From assembly GCA_027347985.1 (NCBI GenBank), contig DAIEQH010000005.1, positions 1-32,682 of the forward strand: a stretch of DNA of 32,682 bases. Reading direction: 5' to 3'. Shown piece after piece: positions 7,310 to 29,578 of this stretch. The DNA is from Candidatus Nomurabacteria bacterium (lineage in GTDB: Bacteria > Patescibacteriota > Minisyncoccia > Phycocordibacterales > UBA9973). Positions within the stretch are counted from its first letter, which is position 1, and every line of letters begins with the position of its first letter. The position numbers and the translations under genes are program-made. Below the pieces are notes generated by a model. The model was not told the origin of the DNA and searched no databases. It saw only the letters and a program-made list of their open reading frames with translations.

Positions 7310-7696
7310 TTACCATAATCTAAATAATGCTTCTCCCCCGACTTGTTCTTTTCTCGTTTCCTTGCCAGACAAAATTCCTTTTGGCGTGGAAAGCACGAGA
7401 AGTCCAGAACCATTTCTGATTGAATGAATTTCTTTCATTTTGAAATAAACGCGACGGGATTGTTTAGAGATTCTTTCTACTTCCGTGATTTTTGGTTTCT
7501 TTTCTATATAAACTAATTCAACTTCCAATGTTGGAAAACCTTTTTTAACTTTTTTAGAAACTTGTTTCAAATATCCTTCTTTCTTCAAACATTCTGCAAT
7601 AGCATTTTTTAATTTGGAATATGGGAAAGAAACAGTCTCCTTGCCTGCAAGAGAAGCGTTCTTTAACATTATTATCATGTTTGAAATTGAATCCAT
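7310..7696 (-). CDS. rpsH: 30S ribosomal protein S8
   Basis: MDSISNMIIMLKNASLAGKETVSFPYSKLK ... LLVLSTPKGILSGKETRKEQVGGEALFRLW. Confidence 0.96.
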   Translation of the reverse strand: MDSISNMIIMLKNASLAGKETVSFPYSKLKNAIAECLKKEGYLKQVSKKVKKGFPTLEVELVYIEKKPKITEVERISKQSRRVYFKMKEIHSIRNGSGLLVLSTPKGILSGKETRKEQVGGEALFRLW

Positions 7697-7705
7697 AAAA
7701 TTTAA

Positions 7706-7891
7706 TTACCAGCTTGATTTACGAACACCCGGAAGCATTCCTTCATTTGCTAATTCTCTGAAACAAATACGACATATACCGAAATCTCTCATGAAGCCAT
7801 TGCCTCGTCCACAACGAAAACAACGATTTTTCTGTCGTGTAGAAAATTTAGGTGTTTTTTTACTTCTTGCTATAACTGATGTTTTTGCCAT
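7706..7891 (-). CDS. rpsN: 30S ribosomal protein S14, zinc-binding type
   Basis: 61 aa; CFRCGRGNGFMRDFGICRICFRELANEGMLPGVRKSSW with two CxxC. Confidence 0.96.
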   Translation of the reverse strand: MAKTSVIARSKKTPKFSTRQKNRCFRCGRGNGFMRDFGICRICFRELANEGMLPGVRKSSW

Positions 7892-8005
7892 AAATAAATA
7901 ATATTGGGAGGGCTTTACAATATCTCACTTTTTTTCTTTAAGCCTTTAAAATAAAGGTCTAAAGGAGAAAAGTGGATTAATCAAAGCTATATTCCCTTGC
8001 GATAT

Positions 8006-8034
8006 ATACTAGCAAAATCTAAAAAAATAGTCAA
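8006..8034 (-). promoter_or_regulatory. sigma70-like promoter of rpsN and downstream spc genes
   Basis: TTGACT-17-TAGTAT with TGC extension (TTTTGCTAGTAT). Confidence 0.75.
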
Positions 8035-8036
8035 AT

Positions 8037-8071
8037 AAAAAGGCCTGTATTGATATTATCTCAAGACCTCT
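8037..8071 (-). terminator. terminator of the 83 aa orphan gene
   Basis: AGGTCT ... AGGCCTTTTTATTT (stem with one G-U) on the minus strand after the stop. Confidence 0.55.
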
Positions 8072-8076
8072 TGGAT

Positions 8077-8328
8077 TCAACCAAGTAAATTACTTATCTC
8101 CTGAAAATTTGCGGTAAAACGACACTTTTCCGGAGTTTCCTCAACCAACTTTATGCAACGTTCTACTGAAATCCCTTCTTCAAGAATGGACACCTTTTCT
8201 CTATCTTCCTTGGTCCATTCAACATTGAAACTGAGATCAAAATCTTCTTTTGTTTTGTATTGCATATAAAAGCGGACATCTTTATAACCACCCGCTTTTT
8301 CTGTATAAACAAACACTACATTATACAT
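8077..8328 (-). CDS. orphan 83 aa protein inserted between rplE and rpsN
   Basis: Start placed at the second ATG (MYNVVFVYTEK): a GGAGG lies 5 nt upstream of it, whereas the track start (8340) would contain the SD. Own promoter-like and terminator-like sequences. Confidence 0.75.
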   Translation of the reverse strand: MYNVVFVYTEKAGGYKDVRFYMQYKTKEDFDLSFNVEWTKEDREKVSILEEGISVERCIKLVEETPEKCRFTANFQEISNLLG

Positions 8329-8385
8329 AGATACCTCCATTAAGTATAATTTTTAAAAAATATTCGGAACAATTTTTACCAACTA

Positions 8386-22770: not shown

Positions 22771-23643
22771 ATGAAAGCTTATTTAGATATCGTAAAAAAC
22801 GTTTTGGAAAACGGAGTAAAAATTGAAACCCGCCAAGGTATTCCCGCCTATACAATTGCTGGTGCTATTTTTGAACACGACATGTCTAAAGGCTTTCCAT
22901 TACTTACAACAAAAAAAGTTCCACTCCGTCTCATTGCAACTGAATTAGAATTTTTTATAAATGGAATTACAGACAAACAATGGCTTATTGAACGCAATAA
23001 TCATATTTGGGATGAATGGGCAAAGCCCCAAAAAGCTCCTTATGGACATGATGAGACTTCAAAGAAAAAAATGTTAGAAGAAAGAGACTTGGGTCCAATC
23101 TATGGTTTTCAATGGAGACATTTCAATGCACCATATACAAACTATGATTCAGATTACAACGGAAAAGGAATTGATCAATTAAAAAAAATAGTTGAAACAT
23201 TAAAAACAAACCCACGCGACAGAAGAATGATAGTAAGTGCATGGAATCCTATTCAATTTGAAGAAATGGCGCTTCCTCCTTGTCATTATTCTTTTCAAAT
23301 AACAACTATCGGCGACAAATTAAACTTAATGTGGAACCAGCGTTCTGTAGACACAATGTTGGGTCTTCCTTTTAATATAGCAAGCTACGCTCTTCTTCTT
23401 CACCTGCTTGCAAAAGAAACTGGTTTTAAAGAAGGAAAACTTGTCGGATTTTTGGCCGATGTGCATATTTTTGAAAATCATGTGGATGGAGCAAAAGAAC
23501 AACTTTCTCGTGACCCAAACAAATATCCGTTACCTAAAATAGAAACAGAAAATTGGAAATCCATCTTTGATTGGAAAAACACTGACACAAAACTTTTAGA
23601 TTATCAAAGCTACGACAGAATACCTTTTGAAATAGCAATATAA
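22771..23643 (+). CDS. thyA: thymidylate synthase
   Basis: 290 aa; GFPLLTTKKVPLRLIATELEFFINGITD, RRMIVSAWNPIQFEEMALPPCHYSFQI, WNQRSVDTMLGLPFNIASYALLLHLLA. Confidence 0.97.
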   Translation: MKAYLDIVKNVLENGVKIETRQGIPAYTIAGAIFEHDMSKGFPLLTTKKVPLRLIATELEFFINGITDKQWLIERNNHIWDEWAKPQKAPYGHDETSKKKMLEERDLGPIYGFQWRHFNAPYTNYDSDYNGKGIDQLKKIVETLKTNPRDRRMIVSAWNPIQFEEMALPPCHYSFQITTIGDKLNLMWNQRSVDTMLGLPFNIASYALLLHLLAKETGFKEGKLVGFLADVHIFENHVDGAKEQLSRDPNKYPLPKIETENWKSIFDWKNTDTKLLDYQSYDRIPFEIAI

Positions 23644-23646
23644 ATT

Positions 23647-24144
23647 ATGATATCAATCATCTCAGCTATCGGTAAAAATAATGAGATAGGAAAAAAGAAT
23701 GAGCTTCTTTGGAATTTGCCTGCCGATATGAAGCATTTTAAAGAAACAACATCGGGACACACAGTAATAATGGGACAAAAGACCTTTGAAAGTATTGGGC
23801 GTCCCCTTCCCAAGAGAAGAAATATCGTTTTAACATTAGATAAAAATTTTAATAGAGAAGGGATAGAGATAGTTCATTCAATAGAAGAACTTGATGCATT
23901 ATTAGAAAAAACTTCTACTCCGGAAGAAGAAAATTTCATTATTGGAGGAGGAATGATTTATAAATTATTTATAGATAAAGCAGACAAACTTTATATCACT
24001 CACGTAGACGCTTCTTTCCCTGATGCAGATACATTTTTCCCGGAAATTATCCCAATTGTATTTTTGGAAACTTCCAGAGAAGAACATAAAAAAGACGAAC
24101 AAAATGCATATGATTATGCTTTCGTCACTTATACTAGATTCTAA
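23647..24144 (+). CDS. folA: dihydrofolate reductase
   Basis: 165 aa; MISIISAIGKNNEIGKKNELLWNLPADMKHFKETTSGHTVIMGQKTFESIGRPLPKRRNIVLT, IIGGGMIYKLF. Confidence 0.95.
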   Translation: MISIISAIGKNNEIGKKNELLWNLPADMKHFKETTSGHTVIMGQKTFESIGRPLPKRRNIVLTLDKNFNREGIEIVHSIEELDALLEKTSTPEEENFIIGGGMIYKLFIDKADKLYITHVDASFPDADTFFPEIIPIVFLETSREEHKKDEQNAYDYAFVTYTRF

Positions 24145-24149
24145 AATAA

Positions 24150-24716
24150 CTAAGAAATCTTCTTAATTGTTTCGTCTACTTGTTTATATAAATCTTCAAA
24201 AGTTCCGTTATTTTCAAAGACATAATCTGCCATTCCAATACACTTGGACAAGTTCTGTTTATTAGGATCATCTGACTTCATTTCGGTCTCTTCTTGTTCA
24301 ATAAATTTTTCAAAACTAACATCATCGCTTTGCACATTTTTTCTTTTCTGAACTCGGTCATACCTTGTTTTTTGTTCGGCATTTATAGCAAATAAATAGA
24401 ATTTACCTTTTTTTCTAAGAGATTCAATTTCACCAGCGGTTCTCAAACTTTCCAAGACACAACTTTTGCTAGAATTCTGAGCCATTTTAAAAAGCTCTTC
24501 AGCAACATAACTTGGTCCATAATTTTTTCTAAGGTCATTACCAATCAAGACCATGTTATCTCTTGTTATTGGAAGTCCTCTTTTTTCTATCTCTTTATTT
24601 ATAACATCTTCTCTCGCGGAAAAATGAACAAAATCTTTGTTTTTTACAAGATAGTCAACAATAGTTCCTTTCCCAGCACCAAGTGTTCCAGTTATCCCAA
24701 TAATAATTTTTGTCAT
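24150..24716 (-). CDS. AAA/P-loop nucleotide kinase-like protein
   Basis: 188 aa; IGITGTLGAGKGTIVDYL Walker A; start lies 2 nt after the dCMP deaminase stop. Confidence 0.65.
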   Translation of the reverse strand: MTKIIIGITGTLGAGKGTIVDYLVKNKDFVHFSAREDVINKEIEKRGLPITRDNMVLIGNDLRKNYGPSYVAEELFKMAQNSSKSCVLESLRTAGEIESLRKKGKFYLFAINAEQKTRYDRVQKRKNVQSDDVSFEKFIEQEETEMKSDDPNKQNLSKCIGMADYVFENNGTFEDLYKQVDETIKKIS

Positions 24717-24718
24717 GA

Positions 24719-25243
24719 TTAAAATTTTGGTATCTTATTACCCCACATCTCTTTTAAATAACTTTTACCACTGACATTATGACAATCAACTTCAGGCGAA
24801 GACAGTAACATTCTAGTAATAGCTTCATTTGTTATAGAAGTGGTCATTGACTGTGCAACATTATTTACCTTGCTTTCAACAACAGGATTCTTATATATAA
24901 TTTTTTTAATACCGGCTTGGATGACGTGCTTCAAACAATTTTCACAAGGAGCATATAGACTATACAAAGTGCAACCTTCTAAATCTCTTCTAGAAAAAAT
25001 AATGGCATTCATTTCTGCATGAATAACTAAGTGATATTTAATGGGTCTTTCTTGAGACATTTTCTTTTCATCACAACCACTCATAAAACCATTGTAACCA
25101 AAAGATATGGGTCTTTTTTTACCATCAACTATTACACAACCAGTCTTTGTAGATGGATCTTTTGATTTTTTAGCTACTTGTTCAGCTATATTTATAAAAT
25201 ACTCGTCCCAAGTTAAACCACTACTTTTTGTCTCTTTTTTCAT
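24719..25243 (-). CDS. dCMP deaminase family protein
   Basis: DPSTKTGCVIVDGKKRPISFGYNGF, HAEMNAI, APCENCLKHVIQAGIKKIIY (HAE + PCxxC). Start placed at MKKETKSSG. Confidence 0.88.
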   Translation of the reverse strand: MKKETKSSGLTWDEYFINIAEQVAKKSKDPSTKTGCVIVDGKKRPISFGYNGFMSGCDEKKMSQERPIKYHLVIHAEMNAIIFSRRDLEGCTLYSLYAPCENCLKHVIQAGIKKIIYKNPVVESKVNNVAQSMTTSITNEAITRMLLSSPEVDCHNVSGKSYLKEMWGNKIPKF

Positions 25244-25249
25244 AGGTCT

Positions 25250-25255
25250 ATTATA
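25250..25255 (-). promoter_or_regulatory. -10 box of the dCMP deaminase gene
   Basis: Consensus TATAAT 6 nt before the ATG; TTGGCT 16 nt upstream lies in a terminator arm. Confidence 0.6.
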
Positions 25256-25268
25256 CACTGTCAAAAAT

Positions 25269-25300
25269 AAAAGCCAACGTTCATAAAACTGTTGGCTTTT
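25269..25300 (-). terminator. terminator-like hairpin between dCMP deaminase and HD genes
   Basis: AAAAGCCAAC ... GTTGGCTTTT, 10-bp perfect arms. Confidence 0.85.
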
Positions 25301-25310
25301 AATTGAAAAA

Positions 25311-26039
25311 TCATGCTACTTTTGATTCCTGATTAGGAACATTACTGTTTTGTTTTAGAAAATCTTGCATCCATTCTTCTAAAGAGAAAGTAAAAAGTTC
25401 TTCTCTAAAACCTGGGAGTCTTTGAGCATATTCCTGATATTTAGGTAGGTTTCTTCTTATTACCCATGTCAGAAGATAAGGATGTTTTTCCTGCATCCAA
25501 ATGGGGTAGAAAAGATACTCAAATCTTTCTAAGGCTTTAAAAGCAATCACCTCATAATAATGAACATCATAAATCTTGCTCATTATTAATCTTGCTTTTT
25601 CTGGAAAACAGTTAGGATTGTCTTGAGCAAACTGAAGAAGAAAAGCATATTCTAGTTTAGAAAAAACATTTTTCCGAATTTTAGAAAAATGTTCCTTGAA
25701 AGCAATATACTCTTCTAAATCATCAGCATAGGTTTTTTTACTAGCAATAATATCACCATTTTTGGTAAGTCCTTCTGCTAAGTCGTGAAGCGTAAAAGCC
25801 CTATGTAAAAGAGCCTCGTTAAGATCTTTCTTTAAAGAATTTTGCATGTGCGGTTGTAAAAGCAAAACACACATATCTGCGAAGATTGAAAAAGAAAAAG
25901 AGTGTTGCAATGTTGATTGTTTCATCATATTTTCCCCAATTCCATCTTCAAGATAATCAGACCATCTTATTACCTTGTGTAGTTTATACTGGGAATTTTT
26001 CCATATAGGGAAAAAGTCATCTAAAATAGATTCCTTCAT
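25311..26039 (-). CDS. HD-domain hydrolase, YfbR/5'-deoxynucleotidase-like
   Basis: 242 aa; QSTLQHSFSFSIFAD ... HRAFTLHDLAEGLTKNGDI (H...HD) arrangement; SD AAAGGTGAAGAAATG. Confidence 0.7.
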   Translation of the reverse strand: MKESILDDFFPIWKNSQYKLHKVIRWSDYLEDGIGENMMKQSTLQHSFSFSIFADMCVLLLQPHMQNSLKKDLNEALLHRAFTLHDLAEGLTKNGDIIASKKTYADDLEEYIAFKEHFSKIRKNVFSKLEYAFLLQFAQDNPNCFPEKARLIMSKIYDVHYYEVIAFKALERFEYLFYPIWMQEKHPYLLTWVIRRNLPKYQEYAQRLPGFREELFTFSLEEWMQDFLKQNSNVPNQESKVA

Positions 26040-26117: not shown

Positions 26118-26140
26118 AAGCGTCTCAAACTGAGACGCTT
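26118..26140 (-). terminator. terminator after the ATP-grasp gene
   Basis: AAGCGTCTC-AGTTT-GAGACGCTT then TTACTTTTT. Confidence 0.8.
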
Positions 26141-26165: not shown

Positions 26166-27185
26166 TTAATATTTTTTCCCCATCGCTTTAAAAACTTTCG
26201 TATATAGTGATTCAACAATTTCTTGTTGTTTTTTCCCTAAAGACGCATAGTGATCTAGCCCTGGAGAAGAATTAATTTCAATTACATACCATTTTCTTGT
26301 GGGCAAGGTAGATATGTCGCCATCGATCATTAAATCGACACCACACAATCGTAAACCCATATCTTTTGATAACTTTATAGCTGTTTCCTTAAAAAACGGA
26401 TGAACCTTTTCTGTCACGTCAACAGAAGTTCCTCCTGTCGATAAGTTGGCGTTATCAAGCAACCTTAAAGATTCTCCTTTTAAAAGAACTGATTTAAAAG
26501 TTAATTTCTTTCTAAGAAGCCCCATCTTTAATCTTTTGTCTCTTATGTTAAATGTTTTTTCTCTACCTGCTTTTTTAAATTCACTTTGTCTTTTTGTAAG
26601 CAAGGTCTTAATACTAGACCTACCATCACCTATAATGGTTAAAGGGATGCGTTCATAGGCAGAAATAATTTCTCTGTCCAAAACGACAACACGGTAATCT
26701 CTACCAGTGACTGGCCGTTCAACTAATATAACATTATCAATACGACTAATTTCCGTAAATACCTTAAAGAAGTCAGTTTTGGTATAAACTTTAGTGACCC
26801 CAATTCCTTGGCTTTTGCTGTTTGGCTTAAGAAACACTGGCAATCCTATCTTTTTTGCAAATTGCCATGCTTTGTTGATGTTCTGTTTGGACTTAATTTT
26901 AGTACACCAAGAATCACTATAAAATTTTTTCCATGAGATAACAGGATATCCCATTTGTTTCATAAAGATTTTTGAATAATCTTTGTCACGAGCTATTTCT
27001 GAAGAACCCATTGTGTTTATGTCCAATGTTGTTCCACGAAAATATCTGTTTATGCCGTTTGAATATGATATCTTTCCAACAACACCATATTCTTCTTCAA
27101 CAAAAACCTTTACATTTAACTTCTTGCCGATTTTTAAAAACAAAGAAGCAAGTAGTGGTTGGCTTAAGATTGTTTTAACTTTCAT
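26166..27185 (-). CDS. stand-alone ATP-grasp ligase (RimK/cyanophycin-synthetase-like)
   Basis: 339 aa; KIGLPVFLKPNSKSQGIGVTKV, GRDYRVVVLDREIISAYERIPLTIIGDGRSSIKTLL, LDNANLSTGGTSVDVTEKVHPFF, YVIEINSSPGLDHYA. Confidence 0.82.
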   Translation of the reverse strand: MKVKTILSQPLLASLFLKIGKKLNVKVFVEEEYGVVGKISYSNGINRYFRGTTLDINTMGSSEIARDKDYSKIFMKQMGYPVISWKKFYSDSWCTKIKSKQNINKAWQFAKKIGLPVFLKPNSKSQGIGVTKVYTKTDFFKVFTEISRIDNVILVERPVTGRDYRVVVLDREIISAYERIPLTIIGDGRSSIKTLLTKRQSEFKKAGREKTFNIRDKRLKMGLLRKKLTFKSVLLKGESLRLLDNANLSTGGTSVDVTEKVHPFFKETAIKLSKDMGLRLCGVDLMIDGDISTLPTRKWYVIEINSSPGLDHYASLGKKQQEIVESLYTKVFKAMGKKY

Positions 27186-27280
27186 AATTTCACCTTTCTT
27201 TTATTATAAAATTGACAAATATATTTATTGTAAATAATACCACTAAAACTACAAAAAGTAAAGCTTAATTACTTCCTTTT

Positions 27281-28003
27281 TTAAAATTTTATTCTTTTTA
27301 TATTTTCAAAAAGGGGCTGATATAAATCCTCTTTTGGATTGATATAAAGTTCTTTTTTGTTAATCCTTTCAGTAAATTCAACAGGAGCACCAATTATTAA
27401 AGCAAGTGGCTGTTGTTCTTTTCCTTCTCCCATGCAAAGTACAGCAGAAGTTGCAAGACTGTCAGCAACATCTGTGCGAGAAAATTTCAACGTACGTCCA
27501 AAAATATCTTTCTTACCAATATAATTTCTAATTCCTTTAAATCCAGCATAACCGAGAGCAACACCCACAACTCCAGCACGCAAAGGAAATAACCGACTAT
27601 CTGTAATCAAAACACCTAGATTTTTTATTTTAAATTTTTTACGAAGTTCTTTGCGAATAAATTTTGCTGATTTAAAACTATCTTTTGGCAATAAAACCAT
27701 TTTACCGTTTGCGTTTGATTCATCAATTCCAGCCGAAGCCATAACCATACCATCTTTAATGGTAAGCCAAGTATGCTTTGTACGAAGCATAAAATCACTT
27801 TCAGATTTAATAATCTTCTCGTACATTTCGTCATGCGAAATTGTTTTGTCGATTAAAACAATCCTTCCTTCTGAAAGAGCCACTATCTTTGACGTTACAA
27901 CCAATATAGAATTTTCTGGAATCTTTTTAACATATTTAAAAATAAACTGAAGTAATTCTTCTTTCTCTTTAAAGATACTAGTTTTAAAAGTTTTAATTTG
28001 CAT
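27281..28003 (-). CDS. CofE/COG1478-like gamma-glutamyl ligase (F420-0:gamma-glutamyl ligase superfamily)
   Basis: 240 aa; SILVVTSKIVALSEGRIV, MVMASAGIDESNA, GVLITDSRLFPLRAGVVGVALGYAGFKGIRNYIGKKDIFGRTLKFSRTDVADSLATSAVLCMGEGKEQQPLALI. Confidence 0.85.
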   Translation of the reverse strand: MQIKTFKTSIFKEKEELLQFIFKYVKKIPENSILVVTSKIVALSEGRIVLIDKTISHDEMYEKIIKSESDFMLRTKHTWLTIKDGMVMASAGIDESNANGKMVLLPKDSFKSAKFIRKELRKKFKIKNLGVLITDSRLFPLRAGVVGVALGYAGFKGIRNYIGKKDIFGRTLKFSRTDVADSLATSAVLCMGEGKEQQPLALIIGAPVEFTERINKKELYINPKEDLYQPLFENIKRIKF

Positions 28004-28517
28004 ATTTATATTTTAACAGAAGAGTTCCATTTTTATTCATTTTTTTTACTGATTGCAAAAACAGTTTAGTTTTTTTAAATTTTCCAGAAAACATTGGTAC
28101 GCCATTACTAAAAATATAAGGCTCAATAGTAACATATAATTCATTGAGCATTTTATGCTCCAGAAAAAAATTATACACCCTTGGTCCACCAAGGATAGCA
28201 ATGTTTTTATATTTCATGCTATTAAAATAATCCAAAATGTTTAAAAGCTTAGGATTTAGAAAGGTGGCCGAGCCAATTGTTTTAGGCTTAATAATTTTAG
28301 AAATAAAAACTATAGTATTTCTTTTTTGGAGATTGTTTTTCGCAATTTTATAAGTGTTGTGCCCTACCACAACAACATCATGTCTTGCTAAAGAATTTTG
28401 AAAAAATTTCCAATCTTCAGAACTAGTCCAATCAGCAGAAAAACTTCGTTTACTTTTTGCTATACGTCCATCAATGCTAGTAGCTATATACGCTGTAAAT
28501 TTAATCTTTGACTTCAT
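27993..28517 (-). CDS. RibD C-terminal / dihydrofolate-reductase-fold reductase
   Basis: 174 aa; KFTAYIATSIDGRIAKSKRSFSADWTSSEDW, VVVGHNTYKIAKN, IAILGGPRVYNFFLEHKMLNELYVTIEPYIFSNGVPMF. Confidence 0.82.
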   Translation of the reverse strand: MKSKIKFTAYIATSIDGRIAKSKRSFSADWTSSEDWKFFQNSLARHDVVVVGHNTYKIAKNNLQKRNTIVFISKIIKPKTIGSATFLNPKLLNILDYFNSMKYKNIAILGGPRVYNFFLEHKMLNELYVTIEPYIFSNGVPMFSGKFKKTKLFLQSVKKMNKNGTLLLKYKYAN

Positions 28518-29154
28518 TTTTCCCTCTCAATAAATAAATGCCTAAATAAGAAAGAGGAGTAAGTAAAAATCCCATTGCTATTTTATAAAACCACCATGGG
28601 ATTATAATAAGCAAAATAGTTTGTATTGGATAAATGCCAATAAAAGCAATAGACATAAATACAATCGTATCAAATAATTCTGACCAGGCATTTGATAAAT
28701 TTGAACGTAACCAAAATTTCTTTTCACCTATACGCTTCTTTAGAAAGAAAAAAGATAAAACATCTTGGTATTGGCCAATAGCAAAAGCAACAAGCGAGGC
28801 TATCGCAAAACGGGCAGAAAGCCCAAAAATTTGATTATATCCTACCTGCACCCAGAGACCCTCTTTCGCCCAAGGCATGATAGTAGAAATTAAAGAATAA
28901 AATAAAAACAAAAAAATACTTACTATCCCAGCAAGAACAAAATTGTTCGCCATTTTTTTACCATAAACTTCTCCTATGACATCCGTCATACAAAAAACAA
29001 TAGGGAAAGAAAAAACAGCCACTGAAAGATGAGTACCAAAAAGAAAAGGCATCAATTTTATTCCTAAAGTATTCGCAGCAAAAAGAGAACTTATATAAAG
29101 CGTTAGACAAATAAGAATTTTTTTGTAATCCAATTCTCCAAGTTGTTGCATCAA
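28501..29154 (-). CDS. VUT family (YhhQ-like) transporter
   Basis: 217 aa, ~6 TM; AANTLGIKLMPFLFG, SFPIVFCMTDVIGEVYGKKMAN, SNAWSELFDTIVFMSIAFIG. Confidence 0.82.
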   Translation of the reverse strand: MMQQLGELDYKKILICLTLYISSLFAANTLGIKLMPFLFGTHLSVAVFSFPIVFCMTDVIGEVYGKKMANNFVLAGIVSIFLFLFYSLISTIMPWAKEGLWVQVGYNQIFGLSARFAIASLVAFAIGQYQDVLSFFFLKKRIGEKKFWLRSNLSNAWSELFDTIVFMSIAFIGIYPIQTILLIIIPWWFYKIAMGFLLTPLSYLGIYLLRGKNEVKD

Positions 29155-29155
29155 A

Positions 29156-29578
29156 TTATATTACGTCTATACCCATTGAGCGAGCGGAGCCGGCAATGAT
29201 TTTGATTGCGCCTTCGTCATCTTTTGCATTCAAATCTGCCATTTTCTTTTTTGCTATCTCTAATGCTTGAGCTTTGGTAATTTTACCTACCTTACTGGTA
29301 GCGTTCTTGCCCGAGCCTTTTTCTACGCCAGCAGCTTTCAAAATAAGGCCTGTAGCTGGAGGAGTCTTCACAACGAAATCATAACTTCTGTCTTCGTAAA
29401 CTGTAATATTTACAGAAACTTTATCTCCTGCCATTTTAGCTGTCGCAGCATTAAACTTGGTAACGAAATCGCCAATGTTTATACCAGCCTGACCCAATGC
29501 AGGTCCTAATGGTGGAGCTGGAGTTGCTTTTGCAGCTTGTATTTGTAATTTTATTTTTTTTGTTATTTTTTTTGCCAT
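29156..29578 (-). CDS. rplK: 50S ribosomal protein L11
   Basis: [36 protein letters not shown] ... [20 protein letters not shown]. Confidence 0.98.

Follow-up and report, generated by a model that had tools for sequence, protein, structure and literature searches.

How does a folate-requiring bacterium with a reduced genome obtain its folate? The gap is an old one: PMC1971073 noted many bacterial taxa that need folate and yet lack any candidate carrier for it. The question is raised here by a four-gene cassette in a stretch of 32,682 nucleotides (the window) from a Candidatus Nomurabacteria bacterium (assembly GCA_027347985.1, contig DAIEQH010000005.1). The cassette encodes a transporter of the VUT family, a reductase resembling dihydrofolate reductase (DHFR), a gamma-glutamate ligase related to CofE and FolC2, and an ATP-grasp ligase (Table 1). 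It is probably a salvage operon for intact folate, providing import, reduction, glutamylation and possibly a further change to the glutamate tail. This reading draws on computed family assignments, a modelled fold, motifs, gene order, exclusion of FolC, the alternation of genes at one site and a separate clade of VUT proteins.

The source organism is a tiny, probably host-dependent bacterium. Its assembly (646 kb in 133 contigs) carries ThyA, FolA and GlyA (SHMT), and no FolC, FolP or FolK was found in it at 87% completeness. The transporter, reductase and ligase genes are co-directional and overlap by 17 nt and 11 nt, with the ATP-grasp gene following the ligase after 95 nt. A preliminary description of the window had given this same arrangement, and profile matches bear out its assignment of the four products to the VUT, RibD_C/DHFR-like, CofE-like and CphA-type ATP-grasp families. 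The named loci closest to the cassette are also from Candidatus Nomurabacteria.

The ligase and its relation to FolC

The ligase matches PF01996 (F420_ligase) with an E value of 1e-39. Its best CofE-family model is TIGR04132 (220.5 bits), the Chlamydia-type 'putative folate metabolism gamma-glutamate ligase', against 148.9 bits for the CofE model TIGR01916, where it falls below the cut-off of 180.65. Judged by sequence, the protein is thus closest to FolC2, the folate ligase of Chlamydia. Structure prediction against CofE, which the preliminary description had suggested, gave an AlphaFold2 model (predicted local distance difference test score, pLDDT, 86) that aligns with Archaeoglobus fulgidus CofE (PDB entries 2PHN and 7ULD) at template modelling (TM) scores of 0.84–0.86. 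The motifs AGID-SN, TDS and MGEG align with those of CofE and are conserved among homologues, so the residues whose loss would have spoken against the module suggested in the preliminary description are retained. One local difference concerns G153-C155, the part of CofE turned toward the deazaflavin (PMC10861534); all 28 homologues compared have a different segment here, in which a Pro (P140 of the window protein) is invariant.

The distribution of the ligase was compared with that of FolC in a sample of 287 genomes from the phylum, with two marginal ligase matches left out, FolC counted over its cut-off, and all co-occurrence p values uncorrected for kinship. The ligase is present in 53 genomes from 33 families and FolC in 55, and only three genomes have both (p=0.004). 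Among 26 genomes with FolP, 13 carry the ligase, 12 carry FolC, none has both and one has neither (p=2.7e-6). Likewise, of 121 genomes with a strong ThyA match, the ligase is found in 37 and FolC in 27, again never together (p=2e-5). In folate-using genomes the ligase therefore substitutes for FolC, the two being nearly mutually exclusive. That a protein of this group, COG1478, can replace FolC was stated in the preliminary description and is confirmed by published work, in which the Chlamydia member CT611 complements E. coli folC (PMC1971073). No CofH, a marker of F420 core synthesis, was detected in any of the 53 ligase-bearing genomes; a role in F420 or deazaflavin metabolism was considered and is disfavoured on this ground.

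Two side observations concern these genes. The strong-ThyA genomes include 57 that have neither FolC nor the CofE-like ligase. One genome (G053, contig C7) has two copies of the ligase gene (7684-8373 and 33825-34508), about 26 kb apart, and only the second is flanked by ATP-grasp, transporter and DHFR genes.

Transporters and a variable site

The transporter exceeds the cut-offs of Vut_1 (PF02592; E 5e-39, 134.5 against 27.2 bits) and of TIGR00697, 'queuosine precursor transporter' (130.5 against 50.95 bits), and characterised members of its family carry queuosine precursors (PMC11130926). In a tree of 78 VUT proteins, a branch supported at 98/95 separates all 42 from folate contexts, together with seven others, from the three encoded next to tgt. 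The window protein sits in the folate-context clade. VUT was found in 41 of the 287 genomes. In this sample, which was not chosen by the ligase, a folate gene (CofE-like ligase, FolC, DHFR, ThyA, GlyA or FolD) lies within 3 kb of 10 of the 17 folate-clade VUT genes and of none of the 28 others (p=6e-6), and all 17 genomes with a folate-clade VUT carry the ligase or FolC (p=2e-8). Four genomes (G106, G135, G147 and G210) and the locus L181 have one VUT of each clade. Three genomes have a folate-clade VUT alone and no tgt match; one of them is the single-contig genome G199, in which the VUT gene overlaps a DHFR gene. Elsewhere VUT adjoins FolC (L090), DHFR (L097), folA-thyA (L103) or GlyA/FolD (L109, L099). 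In the window no tgt lies beside VUT, and a search covering 6 kb of the window and 11 loci found no preQ1 riboswitch. Both tree and gene context disfavour the view that this VUT serves queuosine import alone. COG1738 is annotated as a queuosine-precursor transporter, yet it contains this folate-context clade, and the annotation may therefore be wrong for a definable part of the family.

The neighbourhood of the ligase is conserved across relatives, as became clear from 79 named loci that were selected by the ligase alone, with neighbours counted within three genes on the same strand. VUT is a neighbour in 33 of these, an energy-coupling factor (ECF)-S-like protein in 14, and both in none; DHFR-like genes are neighbours in 19 loci, and the ATP-grasp gene in 12. 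ThyA is no more than six genes away from the ligase in 22 of the 79, rplK is upstream of it in 22 named loci, and GlyA and FolD are found downstream in L200 and L196. VUT and the ECF-S-like protein are also mutually exclusive across 118 loci (p=4e-4, uncorrected for kinship).

In Nomurabacteria a single site, between rplK and folA-thyA, comes in several versions. The site holds VUT-ligase, VUT-DHFR-ligase or ECF-S-like-DHFR-ligase, and further versions consist of ECF-S-like-ligase-ATP-grasp, FolB-ligase (L133) and FolP-CADD-ligase-ATP-grasp (L139). In the last of these, FolP, a CADD-family protein (para-aminobenzoate synthase type), the CofE-like ligase and the ATP-grasp form one operon (L139:6473-9744) at the site that VUT occupies in the window; the dihydropteroate synthase match (294 bits) is over its cut-off, and the CADD match reaches 194 bits against a cut-off of 200. 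Nothing argues more strongly for folate supply by the importers than their alternation with FolB or FolP-CADD in a single slot. The whole cassette is absent between rplK and the thymidylate genes in a near-complete genome from the same genus (G132; L213, G132:C1:156000-175000). There a different gene lies 189 bp after rplK, and a dCTP-deaminase-like gene (assigned by eye), folA and thyA come next. Since this genome keeps thyA and folA without the cassette, the cassette is gained or lost as a block.

The ECF-S-like protein is unrelated to VUT and represents an uncharacterised membrane family. It lies beside the ligase in L045, L053, L054, L057, L061 and L068, beside FolC in L120 and L125, and near FolC-thyA-folA in L114 and L115; examples of its genes are L053:9210-9905, L061:8048-8692 and L120:4021-4755. 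Nineteen of the 20 genomes that encode it have the ligase or FolC, and the remaining one (G050) has a divergent ligase-like gene. Sequence comparison gave no known structure and no named Pfam or NCBIfam family beyond a weak match of one of nine members to PF12822 (E 3e-4). With a predicted model (pLDDT 80), the top 13 PDB matches in Foldseek were all ECF transporter components, among them RibU, ThiT, BioY and folate ECF, at non-significant E values of 0.065 or more.

Reductase, ATP-grasp and surrounding genes

The reductase matches RibD_C (E 4e-13) and DHFR_1 (E 2e-7), and its closest PDB match is Thermotoga maritima DHFR (E 7e-22). The DHFR catalytic Asp (E. coli D27) is present in all 24 aligned sequences, which include two canonical FolA proteins, and 23 of the 24 also have the Trp next to it in the active site. 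The exception for Trp (L039) looks RibD_C-like by eye, yet the gene order there is still VUT-reductase-ligase. Against the RibD equivalog TIGR00326 the protein scores 18.7 bits and misses the cut-off of 156.35. The conserved DHFR active-site residues speak against a RibD-like pyrimidine reductase, and the mixed RibD_C/DHFR-like label of the preliminary description is replaced here by a DHFR-like one.

The family closest to the ATP-grasp is the ATP-grasp domain of CphA. The protein covers only that region, without the Mur-ligase half, and reaches 168 bits, against 850–877 bits for full-length CphA. Close orthologues (E<1e-80) were found in five of 80 genomes searched. Four of these five are encoded beside the CofE-like ligase, in varying orders and orientations, and the gene is also part of the FolP-CADD version of the cassette. 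These observations support its belonging to the cassette rather than being a stand-alone neighbour. The preliminary description had suggested that the gene has its own promoter. This is unsupported: the region has no more promoter-like matches than chance would give (16, with 17.9 expected from shuffles), the gap contains a single, weak candidate, and in the relatives L053, L139 and L158 the ATP-grasp gene overlaps the ligase gene. A strong terminator-like hairpin lies 3' of the gene. At the other end VUT starts 1 nt after rplK, and the cassette may therefore share the rplK transcript.

Table 1. Features of the cassette and of neighbouring genes in the window
Feature	Position	Strand	Basis
VUT (PF02592/COG1738) membrane transporter, 217 aa, predicted folate importer	28501-29154	-	Vut_1, TIGR00697, folate-context clade
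Thermotoga-type DHFR-like enzyme (also RibD_C match), 174 aa	27993-28517	-	T. maritima DHFR match, W....D motif
CofE/FolC2-like gamma-glutamate ligase, 240 aa, predicted dihydrofolate/folylpolyglutamate synthase	27281-28003	-	TIGR04132, modelled fold, FolC exclusion
Stand-alone ATP-grasp ligase, CphA-like ATP-grasp domain only, 339 aa, predicted glutamyl-tail modifier	26166-27185	-	close orthologues beside CofE-like gene
Terminator-like hairpin closing the cassette	26118-26140	-	10-bp stem, T-rich tail; consensus match only
rplK, upstream anchor of the cassette in Nomurabacteria	29156-29578	-	1-nt gap to VUT
thyA, thymidylate synthase (folate consumer)	22771-23643	+	PF00303, E 1e-91
folA, canonical DHFR	23647-24144	+	PF00186, E 3e-59
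Nucleotide-kinase-like AAA protein, thymidylate cluster	24150-24716	-	AAA_18, E 4e-11
dCMP-deaminase-like protein	24719-25264	-	PF00383, E 1e-21
Weak YfbR-like (HD) candidate deoxynucleotidase	25311-26039	-	PF12917, E 0.002, below cut-off

The thyA-folA pair (22771-24144) was placed 2.5 kb away in the preliminary description; it is indeed nearby, at about 2.0 kb from the ATP-grasp gene and 3.1 kb from the ligase gene. Between the cassette and this pair lie the kinase-like, dCMP-deaminase-like and weak HD/YfbR-like genes (24150-26039), likely a cluster supplying dUMP and dTMP. No relatives were found in viral contigs.

Proposed folate salvage, its alternatives and known systems

The substrate of VUT, the enzyme activities and the whole of the ATP-grasp step are inferred. 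VUT would import folate, or a precursor that lies after FolP, from neighbouring cells. Candidates are dihydropteroate, folic acid, dihydrofolate and reduced folate, and since the assembly yielded neither FolK nor FolP, whatever is imported should be at or beyond dihydropteroate. The Thermotoga-type DHFR would reduce it toward tetrahydrofolate; a second DHFR of this kind might serve to reduce fully oxidised folic acid. The ligase would then add gamma-linked glutamate, using GTP and metal as CofE does, and the resulting tail would hold the coenzyme in the cell and fit it to ThyA, FolA and GlyA. The ATP-grasp may extend or cap this glutamyl tail, probably by appending another amino acid as CofF does for F420. 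The preliminary description had proposed import, reduction and tailing of a pterin, folate or deazaflavin-like compound; FolC exclusion and the folate gene neighbours give the folate branch of that idea strong support, and the deazaflavin branch is disfavoured by the missing CofH. None of the three outcomes that the description had named as refuting it was seen: the assembly, at 87% completeness, showed no FolC, the gene neighbourhood is conserved, and the CofE-aligned motifs are kept.

Several points weigh against folate salvage. The ligase stays under the curated cut-off of TIGR04132 (350 bits), which is reached in none of the 287 genomes. Nine of the 13 FolP-positive genomes with the ligase belong to one family, and the counts are uncorrected for kinship. 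Seven of the 17 folate-clade VUT genes have no folate gene within 3 kb. The same search over 6 kb of the window and 11 loci gave no tetrahydrofolate riboswitch. The presence of canonical FolA leaves the need for a second DHFR unexplained, and at 87% completeness the gene absences in the source genome are weak on their own. Lastly, tgt is present in the source genome, on a contig other than that of its only VUT, so queuosine-precursor import could be a task of this protein.

That last point also fits a different explanation, in which ligase and DHFR serve folate and VUT is an ordinary importer of preQ0, preQ1 or queuine that is merely co-transcribed. The TIGR00697 score, the substrates of characterised VUT proteins and the presence of tgt without a second VUT in the source genome all speak for it. 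We nevertheless consider it improbable, given the separation of the folate-context clade from the tgt-adjacent VUTs, the genomes with one VUT of each clade, the three without a tgt match and the alternation of VUT with an ECF-S-like transporter, FolB or FolP-CADD at one site. It is far less probable still that the cassette handles a non-folate pterin or a deazaflavin, with the ligase tagging an F420-like or pterin compound and the reductase being RibD-like. Remote homology to CofE and RibD_C is compatible with this; the absence of CofH, the altered chromophore-facing segment, FolC exclusion, the folate gene neighbours and the retained DHFR catalytic Asp all oppose it.

Within folate salvage itself, the import might be of dihydropteroate, the ligase then acting mainly as a dihydrofolate synthase. 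FolP makes dihydropteroate, and in L139 it precedes the same ligase; with FolK and FolP not found in the source genome, import must lie beyond both. Free dihydropteroate is not known as a common external nutrient, and the second DHFR suits oxidised or dihydro folates equally; this variant is regarded as unlikely. The place of the ATP-grasp is more evenly balanced. That it has nothing to do with the folate genes beyond a common transcript is a serious possibility, which we disfavour by a little: the gene is absent from most ligase loci, and the genome G085 has a clear orthologue with no ligase or other folate genes nearby (L212, G085:C1:54000-68000), whereas the close orthologues beside the ligase, in varied arrangements, and its presence in the FolP-CADD version argue for a folate role.

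Taken with these alternatives, salvage of intact folate is the preferred account. A broader proposal can be built on it. In Patescibacteria, a branch of COG1738 and the ECF-S-like family would both import folate and could stand in for each other, and each would work with a FolC2-type ligase, a Thermotoga-type DHFR and a new ATP-grasp. By capping the tail of the folate with a further amino acid, the ATP-grasp would produce an undescribed coenzyme form. Taken whole, this is tentative and rather doubtful. On the best reading, the new elements are the folate-linked branch of the 'queuosine' transporter family, the uncharacterised ECF-S-like family and the associated ATP-grasp. The literature searched, which covered subscription journals little, contained no account of a link between COG1738 and folate or of such a cassette in Patescibacteria. 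The locus offers two candidate carrier families for folate-requiring bacteria with reduced genomes, extends the Chlamydia-type replacement of FolC to many Patescibacteria, and proposes a concrete and testable dependence of these organisms on their neighbours.

Replacement of FolC by a CofE-family protein is already known from Chlamydia, and the closest parallel is found there. Chlamydia FolC2 (COG1478, CT611) adjoins folate genes, and CT610 (CADD) and folC2 cluster with them (PMC1971073), an arrangement comparable to L139 with FolP and a CADD-family protein beside the ligase. In contrast to Chlamydia, most of the loci here are salvage cassettes with a transporter and DHFR and without de novo genes, and their ligases miss the TIGR04132 cut-off. 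With A. fulgidus CofE the ligase shares the fold and the AGID-SN, TD and MGEG motifs; it differs in that the CofH marker was not found in its carriers and in its altered chromophore-facing segment. The reductase has the active-site Trp and Asp of T. maritima DHFR (PDB entry 1CZ3), but is encoded in an operon with the ligase and is additional to canonical folA. VUT is of one protein family with QPTR/YhhQ (COG1738) and passes the TIGR00697 cut-off, yet forms a separate clade beside folate genes and not beside tgt. The ATP-grasp adjoins a CofE-family gamma-ligase, recalling CofE and CofF of F420 synthesis within the wider set of CofF, MptN, RimK and CphA ATP-grasps, but it lacks the CphA Mur-ligase half and misses every curated cut-off by far.

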